Positions 2,184 through 44,441 of a stretch of DNA of 64,000 nt are shown here, piece by piece. The first letter of the stretch is position 1. Each line of letters opens with the position of its first letter. The notes beneath the pieces are model-generated. The model had not been told where the DNA came from. It did not search any database and was given only the letters and a program-made list of their open reading frames with translations. The position numbers were made by a program, and so were the translations under genes. The stretch covers positions 1,364,001-1,428,000 of the forward strand of contig NZ_CP012996.1 in assembly GCF_001412655.1 (NCBI RefSeq), in the 5' to 3' direction. The DNA comes from Pedobacter sp. PACM 27299. Its GTDB lineage: Bacteria; Bacteroidota; Bacteroidia; Sphingobacteriales; Sphingobacteriaceae.

Positions 2184-2202
2184 TTAAAGTAGAAATATTA
2201 AT

Positions 2203-4554: not shown

Positions 4555-4571
4555 CTACTCAAATAAAAGAT

Positions 4572-6935
4572 ATGTTTAGACTAAACTTAAAAATCGCCCT
4601 GCGTAACCTTTGGAAAAACAAAGGCTATACCCTCATCAATGTAGGTGGCCTGGCTATTGGCTTGGCTAGCTGTATGCTTTTGTTATTGTATGTGGCCTAT
4701 GAATGGAGTTACGATAAACATACTTCGGGTTACGATCGTACTTATGTAGTCTATAGTAATCAGAAGAATGCAAACGATATCGTGAGTTATGCCTGGACAC
4801 CTGGTGTTATGGCGCAGACTTTGAAAGAAACAGTACCTGAGGTAGCTTATGCTTCTCATTCCACTTATCCTGATGAGTTCTTAATCAGTAACCAGAATAA
4901 ATCCTACAAGAAAAAGGGGGTGTTTGCTGATCCTTCTTTTCTTAAAATTTTCGATTATAAGTTTATTAAAGGAAATAAAGATCAGGCTTTGAACGCTCCT
5001 AATGGGATCATTCTTACTGAAAGACTGGCTAAAATTTTATTTGGAGCGGAAGATCCCCTGAATAAAACGCTGAAGTTTGCCGGTGAAGAATTGCTGACCG
5101 TGGAGGGGGTGATCGAAGATGTACCCGTAACCAGCAGCATTCAGTTCGACTACTTGCTTTCCTGGCAGTTCTACGAGAAATTAAATCCATGGAGCAAAAG
5201 GGCTGGCTGGGGAAGTAATTTCTGTTTAACCCTGCTGCAATTACGGGATAACAGTTCCTTTGAAAAGGTAAGCAAGGAAATCCATGGCGTCTATGGCAGA
5301 AACCAAAAAGATAATGACAATGCTACTATTATCCATCCTCTTGCTAAATGGCATTTATATGATCATTTTGAGCAGGGGAAATCTGTTGGAGGTAAAATTG
5401 ATATGCTGAGGATTTTCTTTATCCTTGCTTTTTGTATTCTACTGATTGCCTGTATTAATTTTATGAATCTTTCTACCGCAAGGTCTGAAAAGAGAGCAAA
5501 AGAAGTAGGGGTGAGAAAGGCCATTGGTGCAGCAAGGAAATCATTGGTTGGTCAGTTTATGCTGGAATCTATGTTACTGGCCTTTCTGGGAATGATCGTT
5601 GCTTTTGTACTCATAGAAATTAGCCTTCCTTATTTTAATAACTTACTCCATGTAACCTTAACGATCAATTATTCCGATTGGAAATTTTGGTCGGTATTAC
5701 TTGCATTGACACTTTTCACTGGTTTTATTGCCGGTAGTTATCCCGCTTTTTATCTGTCTTCTTTTGAGCCGGTAAAGGTATTAAAGGGATTCAGCAGAAG
5801 TGCTGGTACTTCTTTATCGATCAGGAAAGTATTGGTGGTCTTTCAATTTGTATTCGCTTCCTGCCTGATTATTTGTACTGCGGTGATTTATCAGCAGCTG
5901 ATGTTTATCAAGGACAAACCAATCGGGTACGATAGCAATGGTTTGATTGAAATTCCCATAGAAGGAGTGTTGAAAGATGCCTCAAAAGCATCATTATTCC
6001 GTGACAGGCTGCTAAAAAGCGGCGTAGTTAGCCATGTGAGTACTTTTAGCCGGAGCTTAACTCAAGGAGGAAATAATACGACTTCTATCGCTTGGTCCGG
6101 TAAAAATCCGAATGAAAATATCCTGTTTAACTTTAGGTTTGCCTATGATGATTTTGCAGCTACCCTGGGAGGAAATATGCTGGAAGGAAGGGACTTTTTA
6201 CCCCACTTTCAGGATTCCGCCAATGTGGTCATCAATGAAGCTGCGGTTAAAGTAATAGGACTTTCGAAACCGCTGGGCTCGGTCATTACCTGGAATGGAG
6301 ATAACTATACTGTAGTAGGGGTGATGAAAGATTTTGTAATGGAATCTCCTTATCAAAGTACTACGCCTATGGTGATCCTAAAAGGTATTGAAACAGAAGG
6401 GGTGATGGCGATGCGCTTGAATTCAGCAAAAAATCTCAGTACTGCTATCGCAGCAGTGGAAGGAATGATGAAAGAATTAAATCCTGATTTTCCAGCCTCC
6501 ATCACTTTTGTGGGAGACAGCTTTGAGGCGAAGTTCAATAATGAAAAATTAATGGGCACACTGGCCAATTGGTTTGGCGGTTTTGCAGTGTTTATTTCTT
6601 GTTTAGGACTGCTCGGACTCACGCTATTTATGGCTGAACAGCGTAAAAAGGAAATCAGCATCCGAAAAGTGTTAGGTGCAAATACTTTCCATATCCTTAC
6701 TTTATTAAATAAAGATTTTATTAAACTGGTGGTGATTGCCAACCTAATCGCCTTTCCAGTAGCCTACATTGTCATTAGTAAATGGCTTTCTAAATATGAA
6801 TTCCGGGTGGAAATCTCTTTGATCCCTTTCGCAATTGCCCTTGCCTTATCCTTGATTATTGCCCTGTTTACAGTGAGTATGCAATCTGTGAAAGTGGTGA
6901 AAGCAAACCCCGTTGATGCACTTAAATACGAATAG
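4572..6935 (+). CDS. MacB/FtsX-type ABC transporter permease, array copy 3
   Basis: 787-residue permease, 17 bp after copy 2. It shows the same eight-segment topology and the MFRLNLKIALRNLWK start and NPVDALKYE end. Its first periplasmic domain (YVAYEWSYDKH...) resembles array copy 6 more than copies 2 or 4, as does 'KEVGVRKAIGAARKSLV' after the first FtsX helix, where others have KVLGA. This suggests that copies 3 and 6 form a subgroup that arose by duplication before the ATPase gene came to lie between them. The start ATG fits the conserved N-terminus exactly. Substrate unknown. Confidence 0.93.
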   Translation: MFRLNLKIALRNLWKNKGYTLINVGGLAIGLASCMLLLLYVAYEWSYDKHTSGYDRTYVVYSNQKNANDIVSYAWTPGVMAQTLKETVPEVAYASHSTYPDEFLISNQNKSYKKKGVFADPSFLKIFDYKFIKGNKDQALNAPNGIILTERLAKILFGAEDPLNKTLKFAGEELLTVEGVIEDVPVTSSIQFDYLLSWQFYEKLNPWSKRAGWGSNFCLTLLQLRDNSSFEKVSKEIHGVYGRNQKDNDNATIIHPLAKWHLYDHFEQGKSVGGKIDMLRIFFILAFCILLIACINFMNLSTARSEKRAKEVGVRKAIGAARKSLVGQFMLESMLLAFLGMIVAFVLIEISLPYFNNLLHVTLTINYSDWKFWSVLLALTLFTGFIAGSYPAFYLSSFEPVKVLKGFSRSAGTSLSIRKVLVVFQFVFASCLIICTAVIYQQLMFIKDKPIGYDSNGLIEIPIEGVLKDASKASLFRDRLLKSGVVSHVSTFSRSLTQGGNNTTSIAWSGKNPNENILFNFRFAYDDFAATLGGNMLEGRDFLPHFQDSANVVINEAAVKVIGLSKPLGSVITWNGDNYTVVGVMKDFVMESPYQSTTPMVILKGIETEGVMAMRLNSAKNLSTAIAAVEGMMKELNPDFPASITFVGDSFEAKFNNEKLMGTLANWFGGFAVFISCLGLLGLTLFMAEQRKKEISIRKVLGANTFHILTLLNKDFIKLVVIANLIAFPVAYIVISKWLSKYEFRVEISLIPFAIALALSLIIALFTVSMQSVKVVKANPVDALKYE

Positions 6936-6938
6936 AAA

Positions 6939-9362
6939 ATGTTTAGACTCAATCTTAAAATCGCGCTGCGTAACCTTTGGAAAAATAGGATTTATACTGC
7001 CATAAATATTGGAGGATTAGCCATTGCGTTAGCTGCTTTTATTTTAGTCGCCATCTATGTACGTTTCGAAACTACTTTCGACCATAATGTCCCTAATTAT
7101 AAGCAGATCTATCAGGTGGGAAGAATATTGCCTGATCGCAAAACGAATTATACTGCGATGTCTTTGGCAAAAGCACTGAAGGATGCGATTCCGGAGATTG
7201 AAAATGTAGGGAGGAGCAGACAGACGAATTTTGAATTCGCATTTAGTACTCAGGATGGCCGAGTGTATGGAAAACAGGTGATTTCTGTAGATTATACCCT
7301 GGCTAAAATGTTTGATATCAAACCAGAAAATGGCTTGACTAAACCAGCAGGCGGAGCATTGGATTTATATGTACCGAAAGAATTTGTTTCAACCATGTTT
7401 CCAAAGAAAGCGCCATCTTTTCCTGTTAAGGTTGGTATTGGGCCGTCAAATGCGCTTCAGTACGGTGATATTATAGGAATTGTCAATCATAATTCTGCGC
7501 ATTCCAATCTGGTTTTCGATGCTTTGATCATTACCGATGACGTGGGTGCCGGACAAGAACCAAGTGCTAATAATTACCAAACCTATATTGCAGTTAAGGA
7601 AGGTACCGATCTGGATTTGCTGCAGAAAAAGGTGGATGCTGTTTTTAAGGAAGAGTTGAAAAAGTCGCGGTTGACGGCCGCTGCTGATCGGGAAGGCACA
7701 TTAAAGACTGAAACCGACGTAACGATGTCTGCTGATCTTCAGGTGCTAGATAAATCGGGTGTCTTCTTAGATCCTCTTGATAATTTACATTTAAGACCGA
7801 TTGCAGGTAGCAATACCAATTATAAAATTGTAATGGCCTTGTTGGTACTGACTATATTGGTGATGGTGATTGCCTGTATTAATTTCACCAATCTGACCAT
7901 CGCACAAACTAATAAGAGGGCAAAAGAAGTAGGGGTGAAAAAGGTATTGGGGGCATATCGCATCCAGCTGACTTTCCAGTTTCTAATAGAGATTTTTATG
8001 CAGTGTCTGGTCGCTTTGCTGATTGGAGTCTTGCTTGCAGAATTGTTCCTGCCGCTATTTAATGATGCTTTTAGTGTTTCCTTCTCCCTATGGAAAGGTA
8101 ACACTGCTCTGGCCTGGCAGCTCCCATTGGTATTGCTGATCATTACATTGATTTCCGGTGTTTACCCTGCATTAGTATTGTCAGGATTTAAACCGGCTTC
8201 TGTGTTAAAAGGGAATCTTCAAACCAGCTATAAAACCTTATGGCTCAGGAATGGCTTATTGGTGGCACAGTTTACAGTGGCGATCATTTTCATGGCTGGA
8301 TTACTGATTGTGAGCAGTCAGCTGAAATATATGAGGACAGAGGATACCGGTTTTAAAACTGGACAGGTGGTGTACATCAAAAATATGGTGTGGTTCGACC
8401 GTGGTTATTTTGAGAATATGAAAGCGCGCGTTCTGGCTATCCCTGGGGTTAATTCTTTTACCGTGGCTTCGGATGTTCCTGATGGCTCAAGGCCAGGAAG
8501 AGTCAATTACTCTGCAGAAGGTAAGGAATTAGGAATGGACATTGTTCATACCGATTTCGACTATTTCGAAACCCTTCAGCTGAAACTTAAAGACGGTCGC
8601 TTTTTTTCCAAAACTTTTCCTGCAGATGCTGAGAATGGAATTGTGCTCAACGAATCTGCAGTGTCAGCTTACGGGATTACGCATCCTGTTGGAAAGACGA
8701 TCAGGGGTTGTGATATGGACTACCGAATTGTAGGGGTGGTTAAAGATGCCAAAATGCAAGGCTTCGAATCGGCAGTTGAACCTACAGTTTATGCTGTGAA
8801 TAGCCCTTGTGCAAATGGTAAAATGAAGCTGATGGTGAATATAGACCCTGATCGTATGGCGGGTGTACTGGCCGTTCTAAAGTCAGACTGGAAGAATTTG
8901 AATAAGATGGATGGTGATGATTTCAGGTACGAGTTTATGGACGAGTTATATGGCCGCTTATTTAAAAAACAAGAGCAGCTGCAATCGGTATTTTATGGGG
9001 CAGCTTTGCTTACTATTTTCATTGCTACTTTGGGTCTTTTCGCATTTTCTGCCTTCACAATCGGTAGTAGGATGAAGGAGATTTCTATTAGAAAAGTGCT
9101 GGGCGCTACAGATTTTAATATCCTCAGCTTGCTGAATAATTTCTTTATCCGAATTGTATTCGTAGCCAATCTTATTGGCTGGCCAGTTGCTTATATCGCT
9201 GCGCAAAGATGGCTAGATACCTTCGCTTATAGAATTACAATGCCGGTATTGCCCTTCCTGATTGCCGGATTGATCAGTACCCTTTTGACTTTGTTAACCG
9301 TAAGTTTTCAAGCAAGGAATGCTATAAAAACAAGTCCTGTTGATGCTTTAAAATATGAATAA
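6939..9362 (+). CDS. MacB/FtsX-type ABC transporter permease, array copy 4
   Basis: 807 residues, the longest member. It begins only 3 bp after the stop of copy 3, so translational coupling is likely. The first periplasmic domain (about residues 45-290) is longer and does not resemble the other copies closely, whereas the helices and the terminal KTSPVDALKYE are conserved. 'KEVGVKKVLGA' and 'KEISIRKVLGA' mark the FtsX halves. Two Cys residues lie in the second periplasmic part (around 'RGCDMDY' and 'NSPCANGK') and could form a disulphide in the periplasm; that is inference. Confidence 0.93.
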   Translation: MFRLNLKIALRNLWKNRIYTAINIGGLAIALAAFILVAIYVRFETTFDHNVPNYKQIYQVGRILPDRKTNYTAMSLAKALKDAIPEIENVGRSRQTNFEFAFSTQDGRVYGKQVISVDYTLAKMFDIKPENGLTKPAGGALDLYVPKEFVSTMFPKKAPSFPVKVGIGPSNALQYGDIIGIVNHNSAHSNLVFDALIITDDVGAGQEPSANNYQTYIAVKEGTDLDLLQKKVDAVFKEELKKSRLTAAADREGTLKTETDVTMSADLQVLDKSGVFLDPLDNLHLRPIAGSNTNYKIVMALLVLTILVMVIACINFTNLTIAQTNKRAKEVGVKKVLGAYRIQLTFQFLIEIFMQCLVALLIGVLLAELFLPLFNDAFSVSFSLWKGNTALAWQLPLVLLIITLISGVYPALVLSGFKPASVLKGNLQTSYKTLWLRNGLLVAQFTVAIIFMAGLLIVSSQLKYMRTEDTGFKTGQVVYIKNMVWFDRGYFENMKARVLAIPGVNSFTVASDVPDGSRPGRVNYSAEGKELGMDIVHTDFDYFETLQLKLKDGRFFSKTFPADAENGIVLNESAVSAYGITHPVGKTIRGCDMDYRIVGVVKDAKMQGFESAVEPTVYAVNSPCANGKMKLMVNIDPDRMAGVLAVLKSDWKNLNKMDGDDFRYEFMDELYGRLFKKQEQLQSVFYGAALLTIFIATLGLFAFSAFTIGSRMKEISIRKVLGATDFNILSLLNNFFIRIVFVANLIGWPVAYIAAQRWLDTFAYRITMPVLPFLIAGLISTLLTLLTVSFQARNAIKTSPVDALKYE

Positions 9363-9376
9363 TAAATATTTCAACC

Positions 9377-11770
9377 ATGTTTAAACTGAACCTAAAAATC
9401 GCCTTACGGAACCTTTGGAAGTATAAAGGTTATACTGCGATCAACGTAATTGGGCTGTCCATAGGACTGGCGAGTTGTATTTTGATCTTTCTTTTCTTAA
9501 GATTCCAGACTAGTTTTGATGCGCACTATGATAAACAGGACCGCATTTATCGGGTGGTGTCTTACTGGACCTATCCGGATGGAGATTTCTATTCCAATGG
9601 GGTGCCTGTGCCTCTGGCTCCTGCTATGCGCAATGACTTTGCACAATTGGAACAGGTGGCTGCGGTCCGGAGCAGGAATGGGGTGGTGTTAATAAAGGCA
9701 GCTCCAGGAGTAACAGAAGTGAAAAGAAAGGAACAGCTCTTTTATGTGGAGCCTCAGTTTTTCGATATCTTCAATATAGAATGGTTGTCGGGAAAACCTG
9801 CTCAGGCATTGTCTGGTCCGGGAATGATGGCTTTGTCTGAAAAAATGGCAGTTAAATATTTCGGTTCCTGGCAGAATGCAATTGGAAAAACTTTGAATTT
9901 TAGTCAAAAAACAGACTTCAAGATCACAGGTGTTTATAAAGATATGCCTCAAAACAGCGATTTCCCATTTAAAATGATCGCTTCTTATGCTTCATTTGCG
10001 GGCAAAGATTCTAAAGCATGGGGGCAAGTAACGAACCGTTCTGAGTGTTTTGTATTGCTAAAACCTGGGGTAAACGCTGCGGATCTTGAGGCACCATTGA
10101 AAAAGTTTGTGGCAAAATATTATACAGATCCGGGACCTGGAAAAGAGAACCATATTTTCCAGCCAATGACACAGGTACACCATGATACGCGTTTCAGTAA
10201 TTTCAGTTACAATACCATTTCTTATAAGGAACTTACAGGATTAGGGGTGATTGGTCTCTTTCTTTTGATCACTGCCTGTATCAATTTTATCAACCTGGCT
10301 ACCGCACAGGCTATCAGCCGTTCTAAAGAGGTGGGGGTACGAAAAGTAATGGGCAGCCGCCGAGGTCAACTGATCTTGCAGTTTCTAAGTGAAACTACAT
10401 TGATTACCGTAATCGCCTTATTGCTGGCTTGTGTGATTACAGAATTGTCTATACCTGGGATGGAAAGCTTAATGGATGATAAGGTGTCATTCCGTTTATT
10501 TTCCGAACCTATGATTTTTGTATTTATGCTGCTACTGGTATTGGTGGTGAGCTTCCTGGCAGGTCTTTATCCGGCTTTCGTGATTTCTGGATTTAGTCCG
10601 GCACTGGCCATTAAAAACAAAATCAGCGTGGCTAATGCCGGAGGTTTAGGATTAAGAAAAACATTGGTGGTGGTGCAATTTGCCATTACTGCAGTATTGA
10701 TCATCTCTACATTGGTGGTGATCAGGCAAATGAAGTTTGTGAGAGAGCAGCCTTTGGGCTTTAACCATCAATCGGTTGCCATAATTGATGTTCCGGCAGA
10801 CAGTATCAACATGTCTAAATTGAGTGGATTCAGAGAAAGAATCATGCAATTGCCTGGCATCGAAGAAAGCAGCTATTTCAGTGCCGCCCCATTGTCGAAT
10901 GGTAATAATGAAGTTAATTTTTCTTACGATCACCGTTCGAAAGATGAAGAGTTCCAATTGAATGTAAAAGATGCTGATGAACATTATCTGAAAACGTTCG
11001 ATATGAAGTTAGTTGCCGGACGGGGTTTATCTAAAAGCGATACAGTGAAGGAATTTATGGTCAATGAGAAGTTGCTGAAACTGTTAAATGTACTGCGTCC
11101 GGAAGATGCAATTGGTAAACGGATTGTGATGAGTGCAGGGGAAGGACCTATCGTTGGGGTCATCAAGGATTTCAACAACAAATCACTCAAAGAGGCAATT
11201 GGTCCTGTGGCGATCTTCAGCAGATTGAAAGCCTACAATTCCATGGCTTTGAAGCTTGATCCGAAAAAGATCAGTACAGTAATGCCGCAGGTAGAACAAA
11301 TTTGGAATAGTACCTTTCCTAATCATGTGTATGACCTCGAGTTTATGGATCAGTCTATTGAAAGCTTTTATAGAACAGAGCAGGTGATGGGAGTACTTTT
11401 TAAAGTGTTTGCCGGAGTGATCATTTTCATCTCTTTTATTGGCTTGTTTGGACTGGTTTCTTTCATCGCTACCCAAAGAACAAGGGAAATTGCCATTCGG
11501 AAAGTATTGGGTGCTTCCACATTGGAATTGGTGAAAATGCTGAACCGTTCCTTTCTATACATGGTACTTATTGCCAACCTGGTGGCCTGGCCGCTGGCTT
11601 ATATCCTGGCTTCCAAATGGCTGGCAGGCTTTGTTTACCGAACACAGCTGAGCGTCTGGCCATTTGTTCTGGCGATGGTGCTATCGGTGCTGATTACAGT
11701 GATTACCGTAAGTTTACGGTCTTTAAAGGCCGCTAAGACCAATCCAATAGATGCACTGAAATATGAATAA
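9377..11770 (+). CDS. MacB/FtsX-type ABC transporter permease, array copy 5
   Basis: 797 residues, 14 bp after copy 4, last permease before the ATPase gene. N-terminus MFKLNLKIALRNLWK and C-terminus NPIDALKYE match the set with conservative changes. The FtsX motifs read 'KEVGVRKVMGSRRGQL' and 'REIAIRKVLGAS'. Its first periplasmic domain contains 'DMPQNSDFPFKMIASYASF', a pattern common in the MacB_PCD domains of Bacteroidota permeases. The intergenic space to the ATPase is 46 bp without a terminator, so cotranscription is likely. Confidence 0.93.
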   Translation: MFKLNLKIALRNLWKYKGYTAINVIGLSIGLASCILIFLFLRFQTSFDAHYDKQDRIYRVVSYWTYPDGDFYSNGVPVPLAPAMRNDFAQLEQVAAVRSRNGVVLIKAAPGVTEVKRKEQLFYVEPQFFDIFNIEWLSGKPAQALSGPGMMALSEKMAVKYFGSWQNAIGKTLNFSQKTDFKITGVYKDMPQNSDFPFKMIASYASFAGKDSKAWGQVTNRSECFVLLKPGVNAADLEAPLKKFVAKYYTDPGPGKENHIFQPMTQVHHDTRFSNFSYNTISYKELTGLGVIGLFLLITACINFINLATAQAISRSKEVGVRKVMGSRRGQLILQFLSETTLITVIALLLACVITELSIPGMESLMDDKVSFRLFSEPMIFVFMLLLVLVVSFLAGLYPAFVISGFSPALAIKNKISVANAGGLGLRKTLVVVQFAITAVLIISTLVVIRQMKFVREQPLGFNHQSVAIIDVPADSINMSKLSGFRERIMQLPGIEESSYFSAAPLSNGNNEVNFSYDHRSKDEEFQLNVKDADEHYLKTFDMKLVAGRGLSKSDTVKEFMVNEKLLKLLNVLRPEDAIGKRIVMSAGEGPIVGVIKDFNNKSLKEAIGPVAIFSRLKAYNSMALKLDPKKISTVMPQVEQIWNSTFPNHVYDLEFMDQSIESFYRTEQVMGVLFKVFAGVIIFISFIGLFGLVSFIATQRTREIAIRKVLGASTLELVKMLNRSFLYMVLIANLVAWPLAYILASKWLAGFVYRTQLSVWPFVLAMVLSVLITVITVSLRSLKAAKTNPIDALKYE

Positions 11771-11816
11771 TTCAATTATATATCAATAATAAAATATCAC
11801 ATTAAACAAGCTGATC

Positions 11817-12506
11817 ATGATCACACTTAAAAATATAGAGAAATATTACGCAAATAAAGGGGTTAAAAGTTACATCCTCCGCCATGTGAGCACGGAAATT
11901 AAACAAGGGGAATTTGTGTCCATTATGGGGCCTTCCGGTGCCGGGAAATCAACTTTACTGAACATATTGGGTATGCTGGAAGAGCCTACTTATGGCGAAT
12001 ATGAGTTTATGGGAGAAGATGTGCTTTCTCTTAATGAACGTAAGAGGATTGAGTTGTACAGGAACCATATCGGTTTTGTTTTTCAGGCTTATCATTTGAT
12101 TGATGAGATGACGGTAGCAGAGAATATTGAAGCGCCATTATTGTATAAAAAGGTAAGCGGAGCGGAACGTAAAAGCAGGGTTGCTGATGTATTGGATCGT
12201 TTCAACATGGTGGCTAAAAAAGACCTGTTTCCAAATCAGCTTTCTGGTGGTCAGCAGCAATTGGTGGGAATTGCAAGAGCTTTAGTGGCCCAGCCTTCCA
12301 TTATTCTGGCGGATGAGCCTACGGGAAACCTGCAATCTGCACAGGCCCTTCAAATCATGGAACTGTTTAAGAAACTAAATGAAGAAGAAGGGATCACCAT
12401 TATTCAGGTGACACATTCGGAAATAAACGCCAGTTATGGCAGCCGTATCCTTCATTTATTAGATGGGGTGATCAAAGAAGATATTGCTCTTGAGCAAGGT
12501 GTTTAG
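11817..12506 (+). CDS. ABC transporter ATP-binding protein, LolD/MacB type
   Basis: 229-residue cytoplasmic ATPase with every ABC motif: Walker A GPSGAGKST at residues 38-46, Q-loop Gln 90, signature LSGGQQQ at 142-148, Walker B IILADE at 162-167 and the switch His 200 (VTHSE). Length and motif spacing fit the LolD/MacB/FtsE group, which pairs with FtsX-type permeases. It is the only ATPase in an array of six permeases, so it probably energises several of them in alternative complexes. The signature is QQQ where most family members have QQR, a mild deviation. The ATG sits 46 bp after copy 5. Confidence 0.95.
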   Translation: MITLKNIEKYYANKGVKSYILRHVSTEIKQGEFVSIMGPSGAGKSTLLNILGMLEEPTYGEYEFMGEDVLSLNERKRIELYRNHIGFVFQAYHLIDEMTVAENIEAPLLYKKVSGAERKSRVADVLDRFNMVAKKDLFPNQLSGGQQQLVGIARALVAQPSIILADEPTGNLQSAQALQIMELFKKLNEEEGITIIQVTHSEINASYGSRILHLLDGVIKEDIALEQGV

Positions 12507-12582
12507 CTGGAGGTTTTAACTCCAGGTAGGAATTGAATCATAAATAAGAAATGTTTTTTTTTACAACTAATCCGGACGATCG

Positions 12583-14961
12583 ATGTTTAAATTGAACTTT
12601 AAGATTGCGCTCAGAAATTTATTGAGAAATAAGACTGCATCGATGATTAACATTAGTGGTCTGGCGATCGGCCTTGCTGCTTGTCTGATGTTATTAATGT
12701 ACGTAGCCTACGAATGGAATTATGATCGCGGCTATAAAAATAAGGACAATATTTACCAGGTGATGGTCAATTTTTCTGATCAGAATAAACAGGTGACGGC
12801 AACTGGGGATCAGGCACCAAATGTCCTTGCTAAAACTTTAAAGCAAGAAATTCCTGAGATTGAACACATTGCTAGAGTCCTATGGCCTATAAAACGTCTC
12901 CTTGTAAATGGAGAAAATACGTTTAAAGTAGAAGGCAGGTCCGCAGATGCTGAAATATTAAAAATCTTTGATTATAAATTTATCACTGGCAGTCCAGAAA
13001 CTGCTTTTAAGGATCCTAATTCGGTTATTCTGACTGAAAGTACGGCAAAAAAACTGTTCGGAAGTACTGATGTATTGAATAAGGTATTGAAATATGAAAA
13101 TCAGGCAGATGTGAAGGTCGGTGGGGTAATCAAAGACCATGAGCCAAATACAACCTATCAGTTTGATTGTTTAATTCCATGGACTTTACAAGCAAAGCTG
13201 GATGACTGGGTTGAAAAACCAAATTGGGGAAATTTCGCCTTTTATACGTTGCTGACTTTGAAAGAAGGGGTTAATGTAGACCATTTTAATACTAAGATTA
13301 GCAATATCATAGTTAAGCACGCACCAAGCGATAATATAGACCCTAGCGTTTTTGTACAGCCATTGGTGGATCTTCATCTATATGGAGAATTTAAAAATGG
13401 ACATCCTTCAGGAGGGAGAATTGAGCAGCTGCGTTTCTTTGTTGCGCTTGCCTTAGGAATTTTAATCATTGCCTGCATTAACTTTATGAACCTGGCTACT
13501 GCAAGGTCTCAGAAGAGAGCAAAAGAAGTGGGTATAAAGAAGACGATTGGAGCATCGAGAAAATCACTGGTCGTACAGTTTCTATTGGAATCGTTATTGC
13601 TCACCTTTGTGAGTGTGGTACTGGCAGTAATGCTGGTGGAGCTGGCCTTGCCTAAGTTTAATCATTTGCTGAATATTCAGCTGGAACTTAATTACGGAAA
13701 CCCATTTGCCTGGTTAACTGCAATTGCATTGATTTTAGTAACGGGTGCATTGGCAGGAAGCTATCCAGCTTTTTACCTTTCTTCTTTTAACCCGATTCAG
13801 ACGATGAAAAAGGCGGTAAATGCGAAGCAAGGTTTTTCATTGTCGTTCAGACAAGTGTTGGTCGTAGTTCAATTTAGTTTTGCAATTGTACTCATTGTGG
13901 GGACGCTGATTGTGTATCAGCAGCTTCAATACCTTAAGAATAAACCATTGGGATATGAGGTGAATTCCTTATTGGAGATGCCTCATGAGGGTAATTTATA
14001 CCCGAAGTTCGACTTGCTAAAGGAACGACTTCTGGCTTCTGGTGCGGTAACAAGCGTATGCCAGTCGTCGGGAAGTATTTCTATGCCCAATTCAAATGGT
14101 TCAGGAATGGAGTGGAAAGGGATGTCTGAGGATGGTAAACGAATGTCTTTTAACCAGATTTATACCAGCTATGATTTCATTAAAACAAATGGGATAAAAC
14201 TAATAGAAGGTCGGGATTTTGACCCTAAAATTGCTTCAGATAAAATGGCTTTGATGCTCAGTGAAACTGCGATTAAAACCATGGGTTTAAAAGATCCTAT
14301 AGGTCAGAAGATTAAACTATGGGGTGCGGACAGGACTGTTGTAGGGATCTTTAAAGACCTTACCTGGGGAGATCCAGCAAAAATGAACCTGCCAATGATG
14401 ATTGGTTTTAATCCACTGAATAGTGATGTGATTAATATGCGAATGAATACTTCAAATCCTACATCTGAAAATATAGAAACTATCAGCAGGATTACAAAAG
14501 AAATTAATCCTGAATTCCCTGTCGACATTAAGTTTGTAGACCAGCTGATTCAGGCAAAATTTGAAAATGAAATGATCCTTGGTGTGCTGTCTAATCTGTT
14601 TGGCGGACTGGCGATATTCATTTCCTGCCTGGGCTTATTTGGCTTGTCTGCATTCAGTGCGGAACAACGTACAAAAGAGATTGGGGTGCGAAAAGTACTG
14701 GGTGCCTCTGTAGGAGGGCTGATGAAACTATTGTCGTTGAATTTTGTGAAAATGGTATTGATTGCCTTAATTATAGCGATGCCGATCGCCTATTTGATGA
14801 TGGACAAATGGTTGTCGAAGTTTGATTTCCATATTGCTATTGGCGTTCCTGTTTTTGTGGTGACAGCGCTGTTAACACTCCTGGTGGCGCTGCTGACGGT
14901 GAGTTGGCAAGCTTACAAAGCCGCGAAAACAAATCCAGTAGAAGCGCTTAAATACGAATAG
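12583..14961 (+). CDS. MacB/FtsX-type ABC transporter permease, array copy 6
   Basis: 792 residues, 76 bp downstream of the ATPase gene. The start MFKLNFKIALRNLLR is the most diverged of the set, and the end is NPVEALKYE. It shares the 'YVAYEWNYDRG' opening of the periplasmic domain and 'KEVGIKKTIGASRKSLV' with array copy 3. Eight hydrophobic segments are visible, as in the others. Its position after the ATPase suggests either a rearranged array or insertion of the ATPase gene into an older permease series. The substrate is not deducible. Confidence 0.93.
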   Translation: MFKLNFKIALRNLLRNKTASMINISGLAIGLAACLMLLMYVAYEWNYDRGYKNKDNIYQVMVNFSDQNKQVTATGDQAPNVLAKTLKQEIPEIEHIARVLWPIKRLLVNGENTFKVEGRSADAEILKIFDYKFITGSPETAFKDPNSVILTESTAKKLFGSTDVLNKVLKYENQADVKVGGVIKDHEPNTTYQFDCLIPWTLQAKLDDWVEKPNWGNFAFYTLLTLKEGVNVDHFNTKISNIIVKHAPSDNIDPSVFVQPLVDLHLYGEFKNGHPSGGRIEQLRFFVALALGILIIACINFMNLATARSQKRAKEVGIKKTIGASRKSLVVQFLLESLLLTFVSVVLAVMLVELALPKFNHLLNIQLELNYGNPFAWLTAIALILVTGALAGSYPAFYLSSFNPIQTMKKAVNAKQGFSLSFRQVLVVVQFSFAIVLIVGTLIVYQQLQYLKNKPLGYEVNSLLEMPHEGNLYPKFDLLKERLLASGAVTSVCQSSGSISMPNSNGSGMEWKGMSEDGKRMSFNQIYTSYDFIKTNGIKLIEGRDFDPKIASDKMALMLSETAIKTMGLKDPIGQKIKLWGADRTVVGIFKDLTWGDPAKMNLPMMIGFNPLNSDVINMRMNTSNPTSENIETISRITKEINPEFPVDIKFVDQLIQAKFENEMILGVLSNLFGGLAIFISCLGLFGLSAFSAEQRTKEIGVRKVLGASVGGLMKLLSLNFVKMVLIALIIAMPIAYLMMDKWLSKFDFHIAIGVPVFVVTALLTLLVALLTVSWQAYKAAKTNPVEALKYE

Positions 14962-15954: not shown

Positions 15955-16036
15955 GCGGAAGTGGCGTAATTGGTAGCCGCACCAGACTTAGGATCTGGCG
16001 CTTCACGGCGTGGGGGTTCGAGTCCCTTCTTCCGCA
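15955..16036 (+). tRNA. tRNA-Leu (anticodon TAG), copy 1
   Basis: 82-nt class II tRNA. The acceptor GCGGAAG pairs with CTTCCGC, with discriminator A at 16036. The anticodon stem CCAGA/TCTGG encloses the loop CTTAGGA, giving anticodon TAG. There is a long variable arm (GCGCTTCACGGCGT region) and a T-loop TTCGAGT. The CCA end is not encoded. The tRNA sequence is identical to the copy at 16454. Confidence 0.96.
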
Positions 16037-16051
16037 CAACAATTGAAAAAT

Positions 16052-16453: not shown

Positions 16454-16535
16454 GCGGAAGTGGCGTAATTGGTAGCCGCACCAGACTTAGGATCTGGCGC
16501 TTCACGGCGTGGGGGTTCGAGTCCCTTCTTCCGCA
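16454..16535 (+). tRNA. tRNA-Leu (anticodon TAG), copy 2
   Basis: 82 nt, identical in sequence to copy 1. About 30 bp upstream is nearly identical as well, so the promoter leader was duplicated with the gene. Downstream sequence is unrelated to copy 1. Confidence 0.96.
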
Positions 16536-16540
16536 CAAAA

Positions 16541-39204: not shown

Positions 39205-39288
39205 ACCCAGGTGGCGAAATTGGCAGACGCACCACCTTGAGGGGGTGGCGCTTGAAAAGGCGTGGCAGTTCGAATCTGCTTCTGGGTA
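39205..39288 (+). tRNA. tRNA-Leu (anticodon GAG)
   Basis: 84-nt class II tRNA. The acceptor ACCCAGG pairs with TCTGGGT and the discriminator is A 39288. Anticodon stem CCACC/GGTGG surrounds loop TTGAGGG, giving anticodon GAG. There is a long variable arm and T-loop TTCGAAT. CCA is not encoded. It forms the left border of the accessory region that follows. Confidence 0.96.
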
Positions 39289-39315
39289 CTAACCAGATTC
39301 ATGGTTAATTTTTTG

Positions 39316-39969: not shown

Positions 39970-41139
39970 TTAGGGCAGTTTGAGGAGTACAATCATATTT
40001 TGGATACCTTGGAATCCAAATTCCTCTCTATGATTGATGTTCTTTACTTTAATGGATGCCTTGTACTCTGTTAGATAGTTATCTAAGCTCTTATAAAATT
40101 CCATAACAATGGTAATGCTCCAGTTTCTGCCAGGGCAGCTGTGTTGGCCAATTCCAAAGGAAAAATTTTTCAAATTTGGTATACTTTGTATTTCGGCTAC
40201 ATCTCTTTTCGGCGTGTTTGAGTTCGCCGCTCCAATCATTAGTGAAACTTTGTCTCCATACTGAAAATCCAATTCAGGAAAATGAGTGATAGGATTGATT
40301 ACTTTCCTGTTGCAGACTTGAAAGGGTGAATAAAGTTTAATGAGATCAAGCAGTTTTTCTTGCTGAATTTTGATGTTTTGTTGTTGTTTTAGCGCAGCGT
40401 AATCAATTACCACCCTTCCACATAGGGCAATCAACGCATCAACTACATCTAAAAAAGGTAGAAGGCCGACTGCGAGACCAAGTTTGCCTGTTTTAGCCAG
40501 TTGACTTAAAAAACCCTGCTTAGTTAATTTTTGTTCACGAGTTAAACGTTCGATTATTGTTGACCATTCGTCTAATGCATTGTGTTTGGTAGTTGGATTA
40601 TCTACCTGTCCGCGGCCATGTAATAGCTGCAGTATAGGATTTATCAAATGGTAAGCATTCTGAAATGCTGTAACCTTCATACCAGCAATTTCGCAGAGCA
40701 TATGAACCACATAAGGATTAATCACCTGTTTTATAAGGTCAAATTCTTTGATTGAAGTTCCTATCGCGTTCGCCATATCAAAATATTTGTAGGACAGCTC
40801 CATACGCTTTGGAAAACAAGCTATGAATTTTTCTCTCCAAAATTGGTGTTCAGCACCGCTCATATACATTAACCAGTTTTGATAGAAAAAATTGATCGAA
40901 TCTGGAGTTCCTTGGCCAATTAATAACTTTTTTAGGTTCTGTCGATTGGAATCTAGGCTAGGTTCATGAAACAATTGGGTAATTAAATTTGGAGAATTGA
41001 TCAGCCAATGCCTGTCTTCCTCGATTAAGAAGGCATCACCAGTCTCATTCAGTTTTCTGTAAAATAATGCCCTGTCATGATTTGCGAGCAAAAGTGCTAA
41101 TCTTGGTAGTTTATGAACTTTTACGGGTGTTGTTGACAT
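39970..41139 (-). CDS. Divergent cytochrome P450, last gene of the peptide-modification operon
   Basis: 389 residues. The haem-binding motif is perfect: FGIGQHSCPG at 328-337 with Cys 335 as the thiolate ligand, and the C-helix His 98-x3-Arg 102 is present. Two other hallmarks are missing. The K-helix ExxR reads D265-L-I-K268, and the I-helix region (about 222-240, 'GLLPFLDVVDALIALC') lacks the AGxxT oxygen-activating site. It may therefore bind haem but do unusual chemistry. The start overlaps the end of the asparagine-synthetase-like gene by 19 bp, so it belongs to the operon. The likely role, by inference, is oxidation of the modified peptide. No ferredoxin gene is nearby. Confidence 0.85.
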   Translation of the reverse strand: MSTTPVKVHKLPRLALLLANHDRALFYRKLNETGDAFLIEEDRHWLINSPNLITQLFHEPSLDSNRQNLKKLLIGQGTPDSINFFYQNWLMYMSGAEHQFWREKFIACFPKRMELSYKYFDMANAIGTSIKEFDLIKQVINPYVVHMLCEIAGMKVTAFQNAYHLINPILQLLHGRGQVDNPTTKHNALDEWSTIIERLTREQKLTKQGFLSQLAKTGKLGLAVGLLPFLDVVDALIALCGRVVIDYAALKQQQNIKIQQEKLLDLIKLYSPFQVCNRKVINPITHFPELDFQYGDKVSLMIGAANSNTPKRDVAEIQSIPNLKNFSFGIGQHSCPGRNWSITIVMEFYKSLDNYLTEYKASIKVKNINHREEFGFQGIQNMIVLLKLP

Positions 41140-42803
41140 ACTAGCGGTTCTTTATCATAACTCAAAGAAGTGTATTGGTAATGGATTTTAGCAGATTTAC
41201 AGGTTTTGTAAAGGATAGTAGGAAGCGCAGCAACTTGGATAATCGTTCTGGCAAGGATCTCCCTCAATTCCTTTGCTAGCGTTTCTGGAAGAAGTGCTAT
41301 TTTTTTTAAATTATTTTCGCATTGCTCCCTGAAATATGATGGAATTTGAGGTTGAAGACAGGAAAAATCCTGATTACAAATTTCCAGTAGGAGGTTATCG
41401 GAAAAAATACCGCAGGGAACGAACAGTCCCTGTTTTGATCTATACTGATCTGAGCCGATCGGAAGGAGATCTTTTAAAGGTTTTTTTGGTATGCTGAGTT
41501 CACCTGGATCATTAACCTGGAATGCTACTAAATCTAAAAAAGGCAACCTTGCTTCCAGCTGGTTGACTAAAGAAGTGCAATCGGTATGGAGCAGGGTCAG
41601 ATGTTGAGGTAATCTAGTCCAACGATCAAACTTTAACCAGTCTGATGGAGCCATTGAATTTGTAAATGGTTCAAAAAAGGAAGCGGTCTGATCCAGTTTA
41701 ATGTGGGAAAGTTTCTTTGCTATTTCAAAGGAGTGCTTATGTCTTTTTAATACGGGATGGCCCATTGATTTCTTATAATAATGCGGATATCCGCAGAAAA
41801 TCTCATCTGCACCTTCACCACTAAGTACATTTTCTATCCCATCTTTTCTCATTTCTTCCATTAAAATGCTCATCGCAACGGTAGAAAGTGTAGAAAATGG
41901 CCGGTCTATGTAGTTCCATAATTTCTTTAGATGATCCAGTAAGTTCATTTCGTTTATCAAAACTGTTCTCTGATTTTTTTCTGGTTCTTCTGGTTTTTGC
42001 ACAATGGTGTAACACGGGATCTCAGGAGCTACTAGTTTGATCAGTGAAGAATCTACACCTCCGCTGAATGCCAAAGCCGTTTTTCCAGGTTCATAACGAT
42101 TGTGGACTGCGGTAGCTAGTTGATCTAAAATAGAGGTATCGCCGAGATGCTTAATAACGTTGCTAGAAGACCTAGTGGAGTGGAGGTTATTATCAAAAAA
42201 TATGATCTCACCAGGTTGTACTGAATAAACGCCTTCAAATGCGTTTGCCGAAGGGGTAACTCCGAATTCAAATACATGCTGTATACTCAGCCAATCAGGA
42301 ACCTGCCCTGTGTTAGTTATTAAGGAAACGGCTTTTGCAGATGACGCGAAGGATACTTGGTTATGGTTATGGGAATAAAATAAAGGTTTGGTCCCCATGA
42401 TATCCCGAGCTAAAATTAACTCATTCCGTTCTTGGTCGTAAAGCGCCAACGCGAATTCGCCATCGATCATTTTAATCACCTCGATTTTGTCTTGGCTGCT
42501 GGACAGGATCAATGCCAAAGCCTCTGTATCAGAAAGATTTCCTTCAAAACAGACTTTGTCACTATTTACCAGTCTTTTTAATTCATGTATATTGTAAATT
42601 TCACCGTTAAATGAAAGAACGTATCGCTTATTAACGACCACGGGTTGGGGGCGGAGACGGTCACCGGATCTTGCTAACCTAGCGGATAGCATGCTACAAT
42701 GATCGGATTGCCAAGCCCCGTATACATTTCCTCTCCAACTAGTCGCGTTCCAGGCTTGTAGCAAATTATGCTGATAATTAATTGCTCCGACAAAACCACA
42801 CAT
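41121..42803 (-). CDS. Asparagine-synthetase-like amidotransferase of the peptide-modification operon
   Basis: 560 residues with both AsnB domains. The class II glutaminase has the N-terminal nucleophile Cys 2 (MCGFVGA) and 'FNGEIYN' at 65-71. The synthetase has the pyrophosphate loop SGGVDSS at 247-253 and 'LSGEGADEIFCGYP' at 328-340. Where AsnB has RGPD this protein has 'WRGNVYG'. In peptide clusters such enzymes activate a carboxylate by adenylation and attach an amine or close a ring. With an intact glutaminase half, amidation of an Asp, Glu or C-terminal carboxylate is the simplest guess. Its ATG coincides with the HIT stop (1-bp overlap). Confidence 0.88.
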   Translation of the reverse strand: MCGFVGAINYQHNLLQAWNATSWRGNVYGAWQSDHCSMLSARLARSGDRLRPQPVVVNKRYVLSFNGEIYNIHELKRLVNSDKVCFEGNLSDTEALALILSSSQDKIEVIKMIDGEFALALYDQERNELILARDIMGTKPLFYSHNHNQVSFASSAKAVSLITNTGQVPDWLSIQHVFEFGVTPSANAFEGVYSVQPGEIIFFDNNLHSTRSSSNVIKHLGDTSILDQLATAVHNRYEPGKTALAFSGGVDSSLIKLVAPEIPCYTIVQKPEEPEKNQRTVLINEMNLLDHLKKLWNYIDRPFSTLSTVAMSILMEEMRKDGIENVLSGEGADEIFCGYPHYYKKSMGHPVLKRHKHSFEIAKKLSHIKLDQTASFFEPFTNSMAPSDWLKFDRWTRLPQHLTLLHTDCTSLVNQLEARLPFLDLVAFQVNDPGELSIPKKPLKDLLPIGSDQYRSKQGLFVPCGIFSDNLLLEICNQDFSCLQPQIPSYFREQCENNLKKIALLPETLAKELREILARTIIQVAALPTILYKTCKSAKIHYQYTSLSYDKEPLVCQQHP

Positions 42804-43336
42804 TATTTTACCTTGGATGTTTTTAAAAGTTTGAAAATTCTGTTCATTTCGTCATCGCTTGCGCGGGGGCCGTCATGAGACGAAATGTAGCCAGGGTAAG
42901 TTTCAAACGTTACCGCAAGACTACTGTTAATCGGCTTCCATTCTCCTTCTGGAATACCAAAAAGAGGTATTAGTTTAATGTGTGCATGATTTACGCCCAT
43001 ACCTTCAGCAATTAGTGCAGTCCTTTTGGTACTTAATTTTGCATTAAGTATTTTGGAAACCTCTTTGCCAGCGCTTATTAAACTAAATAGTTTATCTTGT
43101 GGTAGTTGAAGTACGTCACTGTCAAGATGCAGTTTTGTGGCTACTACGGTAAAGCCTGGAGTATTCGGGAATGGGGTTAGGAATGCGAGATGATCCTCAT
43201 CTTCCCAAATTGTCCAGCTAAAAATTTCTCGGCTTGCAATTTTACAAAAAAGGCAGTCCTCTTGTTCCATCAGGTTTTTGATTTTAATGCCATGGCCATT
43301 TGTTAACTTCCCAAATTCGTTCTCCATGTCCCTCAA
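42803..43336 (-). CDS. HIT (histidine triad) family protein, candidate immunity or processing hydrolase
   Basis: 177 residues. A zinc-type 'CLFCKI' (Cys 28, Cys 31) precedes the HIT fold. The triad motif reads H117-A-H119-I-K121, so the catalytic middle His is kept but the third His is Lys. HIT enzymes hydrolyse nucleoside phosphoramidates, and HIT proteins are known to give resistance to microcin C-like peptide-nucleotides by cutting their N-P bond. Position directly after the ThiF gene (3-bp gap) suggests self-immunity or control of the intermediate. Start codons at 43336, 43327 or Met 23 are all possible; I chose the first because it follows the upstream stop closely. Confidence 0.82.
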   Translation of the reverse strand: MRDMENEFGKLTNGHGIKIKNLMEQEDCLFCKIASREIFSWTIWEDEDHLAFLTPFPNTPGFTVVATKLHLDSDVLQLPQDKLFSLISAGKEVSKILNAKLSTKRTALIAEGMGVNHAHIKLIPLFGIPEGEWKPINSSLAVTFETYPGYISSHDGPRASDDEMNRIFKLLKTSKVK

Positions 43337-43339
43337 CTA

Positions 43340-44227
43340 TTAATCCCCCATCAACAGTAGCAGATAGGAGGATGCCGCCCCCGCGATCTCTACATTGGTA
43401 GGGCCGAAACTTGGCGCAATCTTCTGAGGTAAAGGTAAGATATCACGTTCATCAGTCATACGTTCTTGAGAAGATAAAGATAGGATAGCCTCTGACATGA
43501 AGTAACCCGCACCTATGAACTTTTTGTTATGTTTTTCTGAAAATATTCGAGCCTTACGAAGGAGGCCGATTGGCTCATCTGCAGTGAACAACACGGCATC
43601 GACTGATGCAATAATCGTTTCCAAATTGTTATCAGTGATTTTTTCCTTATGTACACTTATATTTAATTCTGGATAGCGCTCGTGAAGATTTTCTTTTAGA
43701 ACTTCAACCTTGGATCTGCCTATATCTTTCAAGGTCCAAAAATATTGACGGTTAAAATTACTTTTCTCAATCTGATCATGGTCTGCGAGGACGATCGATT
43801 TGATGCCTCCACCGGCGAGAATTTGAGCGGACAAAGATCCGATTCCTCCGCAACCAACTACGGCAATTGAACACGCTTCGATTTTGGCGTAAAATTGCAT
43901 AATTTGGTCGCAGTCGTCAGCAATGCAGCATAAATAAGCTGCAGTTCTGCTGGTCTCATCGGTAAGTAATTTTTCCTGAACAAATAATATTGAGACTTCG
44001 TCACCTGTTAATATGGCATTGACAGCAATTAAGCTGGTGAGGAAGTCTGCTGATTCATTCGGATTTATTGTTGCGGTACCCCTTGGGCCGGTGACTTGTA
44101 TTTTGTTCGTGGTGTCAAAAAAAGACAATTGAACTGCTGGATTTAGGATTGCAGCGGCTTTTTGCTCTTTGAGAATGACATGTTTATCTAAGCGGTAAGG
44201 TTCAGGTAGCTGTGGGAATTTCCTCAT
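43340..44227 (-). CDS. ThiF/MccB-like adenylating enzyme
   Basis: 295 residues of the E1/ThiF family. The C-terminal adenylation domain has GCGGIGS at 125-131, the acidic 'LADHD' at 147-151, NFNRQ at 157-161 and DIGRSK at 168-173. These are the ATP-binding and Arg-finger elements of ThiF, MoeB and MccB. No CxxC zinc pair of MoeB/ThiF type is visible. The N-terminal 110 residues have no ThiF counterpart and match in size the peptide-binding domain of MccB, the enzyme that adenylates the C-terminal Asn of the microcin C peptide. It follows the precursor gene after a hairpin. Substrate assignment is inference. Confidence 0.82.
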   Translation of the reverse strand: MRKFPQLPEPYRLDKHVILKEQKAAAILNPAVQLSFFDTTNKIQVTGPRGTATINPNESADFLTSLIAVNAILTGDEVSILFVQEKLLTDETSRTAAYLCCIADDCDQIMQFYAKIEACSIAVVGCGGIGSLSAQILAGGGIKSIVLADHDQIEKSNFNRQYFWTLKDIGRSKVEVLKENLHERYPELNISVHKEKITDNNLETIIASVDAVLFTADEPIGLLRKARIFSEKHNKKFIGAGYFMSEAILSLSSQERMTDERDILPLPQKIAPSFGPTNVEIAGAASSYLLLLMGD

Positions 44228-44239
44228 GACGAAAGTATG

Positions 44240-44272
44240 AATGAAAAGACCTGCATCGCAGGTCTTTTCATT
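44240..44272 (-). terminator. Attenuator-like hairpin between peptide and ThiF genes
   Basis: Two perfect 15-bp arms (AATGAAAAGACCTGC and its complement) enclose a three-base loop, and the 3' arm ends in TTTTCATT on the minus strand. Such partial terminators keep precursor mRNA in excess of enzyme mRNA; microcin C operons have one at the same place. Confidence 0.7.
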
Positions 44273-44279
44273 GTTGTGA

Positions 44280-44441
44280 TTAGTTAACTGAAGCGTTGGC
44301 TTTTAAATAGCCGGCTAGTTTTTCAATCTCAATGGATTCGATCCTTGAGACAATCTCTTCTCCAAATACAGTTGAGAGCTGGGCAATTTGCTCGGCAGTC
44401 AAAACGATTTGTACTTTCTCTTCGTTTTCTTTTTGAGGCAT
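44280..44441 (-). CDS. Candidate RiPP precursor peptide with C-terminal Asn
   Basis: 53 codons. The first 43 residues are charged and helix-forming ('LTAEQIAQLSTVFGEEI', 'SRIESIEIEKL') and look like a leader. The end, KANASVN, is small, polar and finishes in Asn, the residue that MccB converts in microcin C (MRTGNAN). I chose ATG 44441 (MPQKENEEK) over the in-frame start 13 codons upstream, since the latter adds only a hydrophobic stretch unlike a leader. No Cys is present. Context is the strongest evidence: it is the first gene of a five-gene operon with a ThiF enzyme and is set off by a hairpin. No similarity search was possible. Confidence 0.65.
   Translation of the reverse strand: MPQKENEEKVQIVLTAEQIAQLSTVFGEEIVSRIESIEIEKLAGYLKANASVN

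Follow-up and report, generated by a model that had tools for sequence, protein, structure and literature searches.

The DNA analysed here, referred to as the window throughout, comprises 64,000 nucleotides of the Pedobacter sp. PACM 27299 genome (contig NZ_CP012996.1, positions 1,364,001 to 1,428,000), and all coordinates are positions within it. From 44441 down to 39970, the list of open reading frames (ORFs) places on the minus strand, in this order, genes for a small precursor peptide, a ThiF-family enzyme, a HIT-family protein, an AsnB-like protein and a P450-like protein (Table 1), confirming as real the five-gene set, including the peptide ending in KANASVN, set out in a preliminary description of this DNA. 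Pfam matches were obtained for the ThiF protein (2e-33), the HIT protein (9e-6) and the asparagine-synthase/glutamine amidotransferase (GATase) domains of the AsnB-like protein (8e-21 and 3e-26), and the 110-residue N-terminal extension attributed to the ThiF protein agrees with a Pfam domain that begins at residue 112. The same description had all genes overlapping or separated by tiny gaps. This holds for the HIT and AsnB genes (1 shared base) and for the AsnB and P450-like genes (19 shared bases), but the ThiF stop lies 69 bases from the likely HIT start at ATG 43270; the mechanically called HIT start, TTG 43336, was dropped because relatives begin near the ATG.

Table 1. Features of the operon, with positions in the window.
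Feature	Position	Strand	Remarks
MccA-type precursor gene	44280..44441	-	53 aa, ends ...KANASVN, C-terminal Asn
Hairpin between precursor and mccB-type gene	44240..44272	-	15-bp stem, 3-nt loop; possible attenuator
MccB-type ThiF adenylyltransferase (predicted)	43340..44227	-	reads 295 aa in frame; residues 1-110 form the N-terminal domain, ThiF domain begins at 112
Remainder of ThiF tail, out of frame	43284..43350	-	GGLIVEGHGERIWEVNKWPWH; stop at 43286-43284
MccH-type HIT phosphoramidase (predicted)	42803..43270	-	155 aa; E89-x5-H95-x-H97-x-K99; presumed self-immunity
AsnB-like glutamine amidotransferase	41121..42803	-	560 aa; Cys2, NGEIYN, SGGVDSS, SGEGADE
P450-like protein	39970..41139	-	389 aa; heme motif FGIGQHSCPG

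A search of 5.8 billion database proteins gave two homologues of the precursor (55 and 54 residues; 76 and 80% identity), and both end in Asn, as does the window peptide. In the alignment of the three, the last 18 residues, SIEIEKLAGYLKANASVN, are the same throughout, as expected of a conserved tail, while the remainder diverges, 20 of the other 37 columns being invariant. The homologues lie on contigs of 8,557 and 7,371,961 bases, equal in size to those of the ThiF relatives P0002 and P0003 and of the AsnB relatives P0024 and P0025; that precursor, ThiF and AsnB relatives share a contig is taken from these equal (longest-)contig sizes. Because these two homologues exist and their contigs match in size the ones that carry the nearest ThiF and AsnB relatives, the precursor ORF appears to be more than a chance reading frame. 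The hairpin that follows the precursor stop (-24 kcal/mol, z -4.37, none of 200 shuffles as good) is placed like the terminator hairpin drawn between mccA and mccB of Escherichia coli in a scheme of that operon (PMC6495379), but here the terminator scan calls it on the plus strand only and not on the operon strand; it is possibly an attenuator acting between the precursor and the mccB-type gene.

The N-terminal domain of the ThiF enzyme was compared by fold using the intact relative P0003, since the window protein is truncated C-terminally. The best alignment of the P0003 model, N-terminal domain included, is with E. coli MccB, which is also the closest solved structure, whereas the alignment with ThiF and MoeB structures begins only at model residue 82; two eukaryotic E1 entries also extend into the N-terminal part, at lower Z. 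The model thus points to the architecture of MccB, an N-terminal peptide clamp followed by an adenylation domain, in keeping with the kinship proposed in the preliminary description. The match to PaaA is weaker than that to MccB in both sequence and fold. AclA, a Tenacibaculum ThiF protein, also appears among the fold matches, and the literature search returned no relevant paper on it.

Further evidence comes from the neighbourhoods of related ThiF genes in other genomes. Eleven loci were studied, nine from Pseudomonas (L190 to L198) together with Pseudomonas sp. PD9R (L005) and Variovorax sp. IB41 (L004), the latter two being among the matches listed. The small Asn-ending genes that the preliminary description led one to expect beside such enzymes are present in the window, in both precursor homologues and just upstream of the ThiF gene in 11/11 of these loci, matching the arrangement of microcin C (McC) operons, in which a precursor ORF ending in Asn directly precedes mccB. 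Counted without filtering, 12 of 18 eligible upstream ORFs (at least 40 residues) end in Asn and six do not, against a background of 4 among 679 ORFs of at least 50 residues elsewhere in these loci; the resulting chance figure, 0.0059 to the 11th power, is not relied on, as several ORFs per locus are eligible and the loci are related. Each locus furthermore holds an immunity-type gene (MccH in eight, GNAT in two, S51-like in one). A HIT gene akin to that of the window adjoins the ThiF gene in eight of the nine Pseudomonas loci, giving mccA, mccB and mccH in a row, and in L190 its place is taken by an S51 peptidase-like gene (8183-8908, minus strand) that matches cyanophycinase and PepE models below their cut-offs; S51 peptidases are described as McC immunity enzymes (PMC9239234). 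L005 encodes a methyltransferase 53% identical to one in the MccD position of an E. coli mcc operon, as well as a decarboxylase-GNAT fusion like MccE, and in L004 a GNAT domain is fused to the ThiF enzyme itself. Because they combine Asn-ending ORFs with MccH-, S51-, MccD-, MccE- and GNAT-type genes, these loci, judged by sequence, tie the window ThiF family to McC chemistry. As an observation apart, L005 also carries genes for a cytochrome c and a flavocytochrome c sulfide dehydrogenase flavoprotein (11533-13284) between its mccB-type and mccD/mccE-type genes.

The HIT protein had been assigned to the route that makes the product, an assignment that does not stand. MccH of Hyalangium minutum makes its producer immune by hydrolysing the N-P linkage in aspartamide-adenylate, and its clade is described as marked by an ExxxxxHxHxKxx signature and by the absence of an N-terminal His (Yagmurov et al., 2020; PMC7157772). 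The window HIT protein carries EGMGVNHAHIKLI, which fits this signature, and likewise has lost the N-terminal His; since the motif is that of the immunity enzyme, a biosynthetic step was rejected and the protein is better read as a predicted MccH-type self-immunity enzyme. On spacing, the residues Phe40, Met91, Ile106 and Trp111 of this protein line up with Phe44, Met95, Leu110 and Trp115 of MccH, the difference being Ile for Leu. It is 51% identical to the HIT protein of an mcc-type operon in an alphaproteobacterial metagenome-assembled genome (MAG; L019, 6615-10773: ThiF, a major facilitator superfamily (MFS) protein, ATP-grasp and HIT) and 45% identical to its counterpart in the mcc-type operon of a chlamydial MAG (L007, 165-2910), both of them MccH-like; these loci were picked by the HIT signature itself and hold plausible seven-residue precursors, MNTVPGN and METEIGN. 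In a nine-row HIT alignment, which took six of the eight Pseudomonas proteins and in which the invariance of the signature is partly a matter of choice, L007 and L019 having been picked by it, the position of MccH Phe44 is occupied by F, V or A.

The genes present and their order, the families and motifs to which they belong, the conserved C-terminal Asn and the association of the ThiF family with McC immunity-type genes are all observed, and from them we conclude, with a probability of roughly 85%, that this is a McC-type operon, predicted to direct the synthesis of a peptidyl-nucleotide belonging to the ribosomally synthesized and post-translationally modified peptides (RiPPs). The core of the preliminary description, an MccB-type enzyme acting on a C-terminal Asn to yield a peptide-nucleotide, is supported by the Asn-ending small genes and the predicted MccB-like fold. 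According to PMC12250964, MccB turns the C-terminal Asn into an isoaspartate joined through nitrogen to the nucleotide. In the McC-type operon proposed here, the ribosome would make the 53-residue precursor, and the ThiF enzyme would bind it through its N-terminal domain, activate the C-terminal Asn with ATP by way of a succinimide, and transfer the nucleotide to give a peptidyl-aspartamide N-P nucleotide. The product would act as a "Trojan horse" antibiotic: imported by a recipient cell and trimmed there, it would yield a toxic aminoacyl-nucleotide inhibiting an aminoacyl-tRNA synthetase, while the HIT protein would protect the producer by cleaving the N-P bond of the trimmed product. The most likely role of the AsnB-like protein would be to amidate a carboxylate on the peptide or the warhead, possibly that of the Asp side chain which MccB exposes, and the P450-like protein may add an oxidation.

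Several observations weigh against this assignment. The sequence similarity of the ThiF enzyme to MccB is confined to the adenylation part (profile positions 91-250; residues from about 90), its family branches in the tree as a deep clade separate from MccB of the E. coli type, and the window protein lacks the CxxC of E. coli MccB; the ThiF alignment took in 19 of 22 database matches, the three weakest being left out. We know of no assayed member of this clade. Judged by equal contig size, this ThiF has an AsnB partner in four clusters, that of the window among them (P0001 to P0003 and P0006); among the best 120 of 7386 AsnB matches, no contig has the size of those carrying the ThiF proteins P0004 and P0005, which lie inside the window ThiF clade. 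As regards HIT and P450 genes, the related clusters are known from protein records and not from DNA. Pfam and NCBIfam scans of the operon proteins and of three neighbouring ones revealed no exporter, bearing out the earlier remark that no dedicated exporter is visible; an export pump is named in the minimal McC cluster set (PMC6495379), and is treated here as usual in McC clusters, not as class-defining. Lastly, the ThiF copy of the window may be inactive, as it lacks about 20 residues at its C-terminal end that belong to the peptide clamp in MccB, where the 20 C-terminal residues are described as part of that clamp (PMC12250964).

The ThiF relatives P0002 to P0006 run about 20 residues longer than the window frame, and the matching tail (...ERIWEVNKWPWH) is found mostly in the 69 bases after the ThiF stop, in another frame and just after a run of five G; W.V.KWP or a similar motif lies close to the C-terminal end in the nearest relatives. 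The break is either a mutation or a sequencing error. If it is a true mutation, the operon could be a decaying remnant in this strain, an alternative that we consider possible but less likely than not. It would account for a tail that is conserved in relatives but out of frame here after the G run, and it is in keeping with the rarity of the family, which was found at E 1e-40 in 1 of 145 genomes of the genus, the one being the genome itself. On the other side stand the four remaining frames, open over their full length, the fact that a single homopolymer indel is also a typical sequencing error, and the codons at the break, which by eye do not resemble a recoding site. Programmed frameshifting was rejected as a first choice, there being no convincing slippery site and a continuous frame in the relatives. 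At the level of order and phylum, in sets that overlap, the ThiF family was found in 1 of 300 and 1 of 395 genomes (E 1e-32), in each case the genome itself; among 301 genomes of the taxonomic family, 264 have a ThiF match at 1e-15, the best outside the genome itself reaching 2e-25 against 3e-122 for its own. In Pseudomonas, the ThiF family occurs in 10 of 398 genomes (E 1e-40). In viral contigs, 56 ThiF loci, with top rows of 31-41% identity over part of the protein, were scanned for HIT, AsnB and P450 motifs, and no relatives of the precursor were found in viral contigs.

Set beside known systems, the McC-type operon of the window shares with mccABCDE(F) of E. coli a small Asn-ending precursor, a hairpin and an MccB-type ThiF gene directly downstream, but differs in the length of the precursor (53 against 7 residues), in the separate clade of its ThiF enzyme and in having HIT, AsnB and P450-like genes where neither an MFS pump nor MccD, MccE or MccF is seen. 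The mcc cluster of H. minutum, described as encoding MccA1 and MccA2 of 36 and 46 residues, MccB1, MccB2 and MccH (PMC7157772), offers a further parallel, compared by description and not by sequence, in its long precursors, its ThiF enzymes and an MccH-type HIT protein with HxHxK; the window differs in having a single precursor and a single ThiF gene, no ABC, HlyD or C39 transporter, and the additional AsnB and P450-like genes. What emerges is an MccB-type family of its own, with long precursors. Searches of open-access literature turned up neither AsnB nor P450 in any McC cluster, nor a precursor bearing a signal peptide, nor an McC aimed at asparaginyl-tRNA synthetase (AsnRS), so that the earlier statement that AsnB and P450 partners are foreign to known McC clusters holds within that literature, and the occurrence of AsnB alongside this ThiF is new.

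The AsnB-like protein is complete, as had been claimed, keeping the Cys after Met1 of the GATase domain, NGEIYN, the SGGVDSS of the ATP-binding PP-loop and SGEGADE. It shares these domains and the GEGADE motif with asparagine synthases and AsnB-like amidotransferases, but its best NCBIfam model, asparagine synthase TIGR01536, scores 187.1 bits against a curated cut-off of 267.1, and it belongs to a small subfamily (nine proteins aligned, the others 29-54% identical to it). The identification as a plain asparagine synthase was rejected on that score, and that as a lasso cyclase on a score far below its cut-off (NF033535, 54.4 bits against 525). At 1e-8, no ORF of the nine Pseudomonas loci matches the AsnB-like or the P450-like protein. 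No AsnB match came from a search at 1e-60, run without a positive control, of 397 genomes from the order to which a Bartonella genome belongs; the AsnB relative P0030 drew 292 plasmid records, none reaching 80% query coverage, and the best viral match has 29% identity (top row).

In McC, the MccB reaction leaves the side-chain carboxylate free. The AsnB-like protein might amidate this Asp carboxylate, turning the warhead into an asparaginyl-adenylate mimic that would hit AsnRS and not aspartyl-tRNA synthetase (AspRS), a proposal that we regard as doubtful in its specific form. The reaction needed is the ordinary AsnB reaction, Asp to Asn, performed on a peptidyl Asp; the catalytic elements listed above are kept, asparagine synthase outscores lasso cyclase, and the producer genome encodes both AspRS and AsnRS, along with lysyl-tRNA synthetase. 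Against it count the score below the asparagine-synthase cut-off, the lack of a spare AsnRS copy within the operon, and the Met, Ile and Trp of the HIT protein, which by spacing fall at the positions of the proposed aspartamide-binding Met, Leu and Trp of H. minutum MccH; that these residues are largely kept suggests an unchanged or isosteric warhead. Alternatively, and with as little confidence, the AsnB-like protein may form a bond, such as a macrolactam or isopeptide bond joining Lys to Glu in the conserved core in the manner of a lasso cyclase, or amidate an internal Glu of the core. Lasso cyclases appear among its weaker NCBIfam matches, its nearest solved structure is a 'hydroxyamidotransferase' (7ylz) with asparagine synthetase B close behind, and the conserved precursor core holds K, E and Y and extends well beyond the seven residues of McC; yet Pfam and NCBIfam scans point to no lasso-type protease gene in the operon, and lasso cyclase models match far more weakly than asparagine synthase. 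Ring formation and internal amidation are jointly as likely as side-chain amidation. All microcin C-like compounds studied so far are stated to hit AspRS (PMC9239234), and an asparaginyl warhead, if true, would be the first natural target switch within the class, directed against AsnRS; a cluster that adds an Asp-to-Asn-type enzyme allows the retargeting of a drug class by one amidation to be tested directly.

Cytochromes P450 are recognised by a heme-binding FxxGxxxCxG motif, a K-helix ExxR and an I-helix AGx(D/E)T. The label given to the last gene in the preliminary description is upheld by FGIGQHSCPG at residue 328 but not by the remaining signatures: DLIK stands in the place of the K-helix motif, the sole ExxR lies at residue 40, no I-helix motif was found, and Pfam gives no P450 match at E 0.5. 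The NCBIfam P450 match (E 5e-6) is far below cut-off, the CYPX match has E 2.4e-4 and matches to P450 structures in the PDB are weak. As the heme motif is present while an ExxR in place and the I-helix motif are absent, oxidation by this protein is only a guess. It was seen in its own genome only and has zero matches in plasmids; a fold predicted from the single sequence (pLDDT 34) was not used.

That the ThiF enzyme instead performs another RiPP reaction (an imide, thiolactone, indolylamide or pantocin-type ring) next to an unrelated housekeeping HIT protein is very unlikely, for although ThiF-like RiPP enzymes are chemically diverse (PMC12250964 and PMC12150305), the C-terminal Asn is conserved, the MccH signature lies next door, and a same-family ThiF locus carries MccD- and MccE-type genes. 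In the texts consulted, the ThiF-type RiPP enzymes of pantocin A (PaaA) and enterofaecin (EnfB), IndF and others are not reported to act on a C-terminal Asn.

The precursors of the Pseudomonas and Variovorax loci (L190 to L198; L005, 9711-9947; L004, 9668-9904) have in 11/11 cases a secretion-signal-like N-terminus, with a hydrophobic stretch and an AxA-type site. They also carry a Cys at -2 or -3 before the final Asn and an earlier Cys at -13 to -19 in ten of the eleven, and at -43 in L005; they are possibly peptide-nucleotides that leave through Sec and form a disulfide. Since these precursors are signal-like and the nine Pseudomonas loci hold no ORF matching two MFS references from known McC operons, the signal may stand in for a dedicated exporter.

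To the left of the operon lies a block consisting of a hydrolase-like gene, presumably encoding a metallo-beta-lactamase fold, and tRNA-Leu(GAG) (39205-39289), which is also found in relatives. In 8/8 relatives examined, the 10 kb beyond tRNA-Leu(GAG) hold no operon gene, and the operon therefore appears to lie in variable DNA with this tRNA gene at its edge. Elsewhere in the window, six tandem MacB/FtsX-type ABC permease genes (725-807 residues) with one ATPase gene (11817-12506) occupy 6-14961, 25 kb from the operon and with no evidence tying them to it, and two identical tRNA-Leu(TAG) genes lie at 15955-16037 and 16454-16536, about 417 bases apart.

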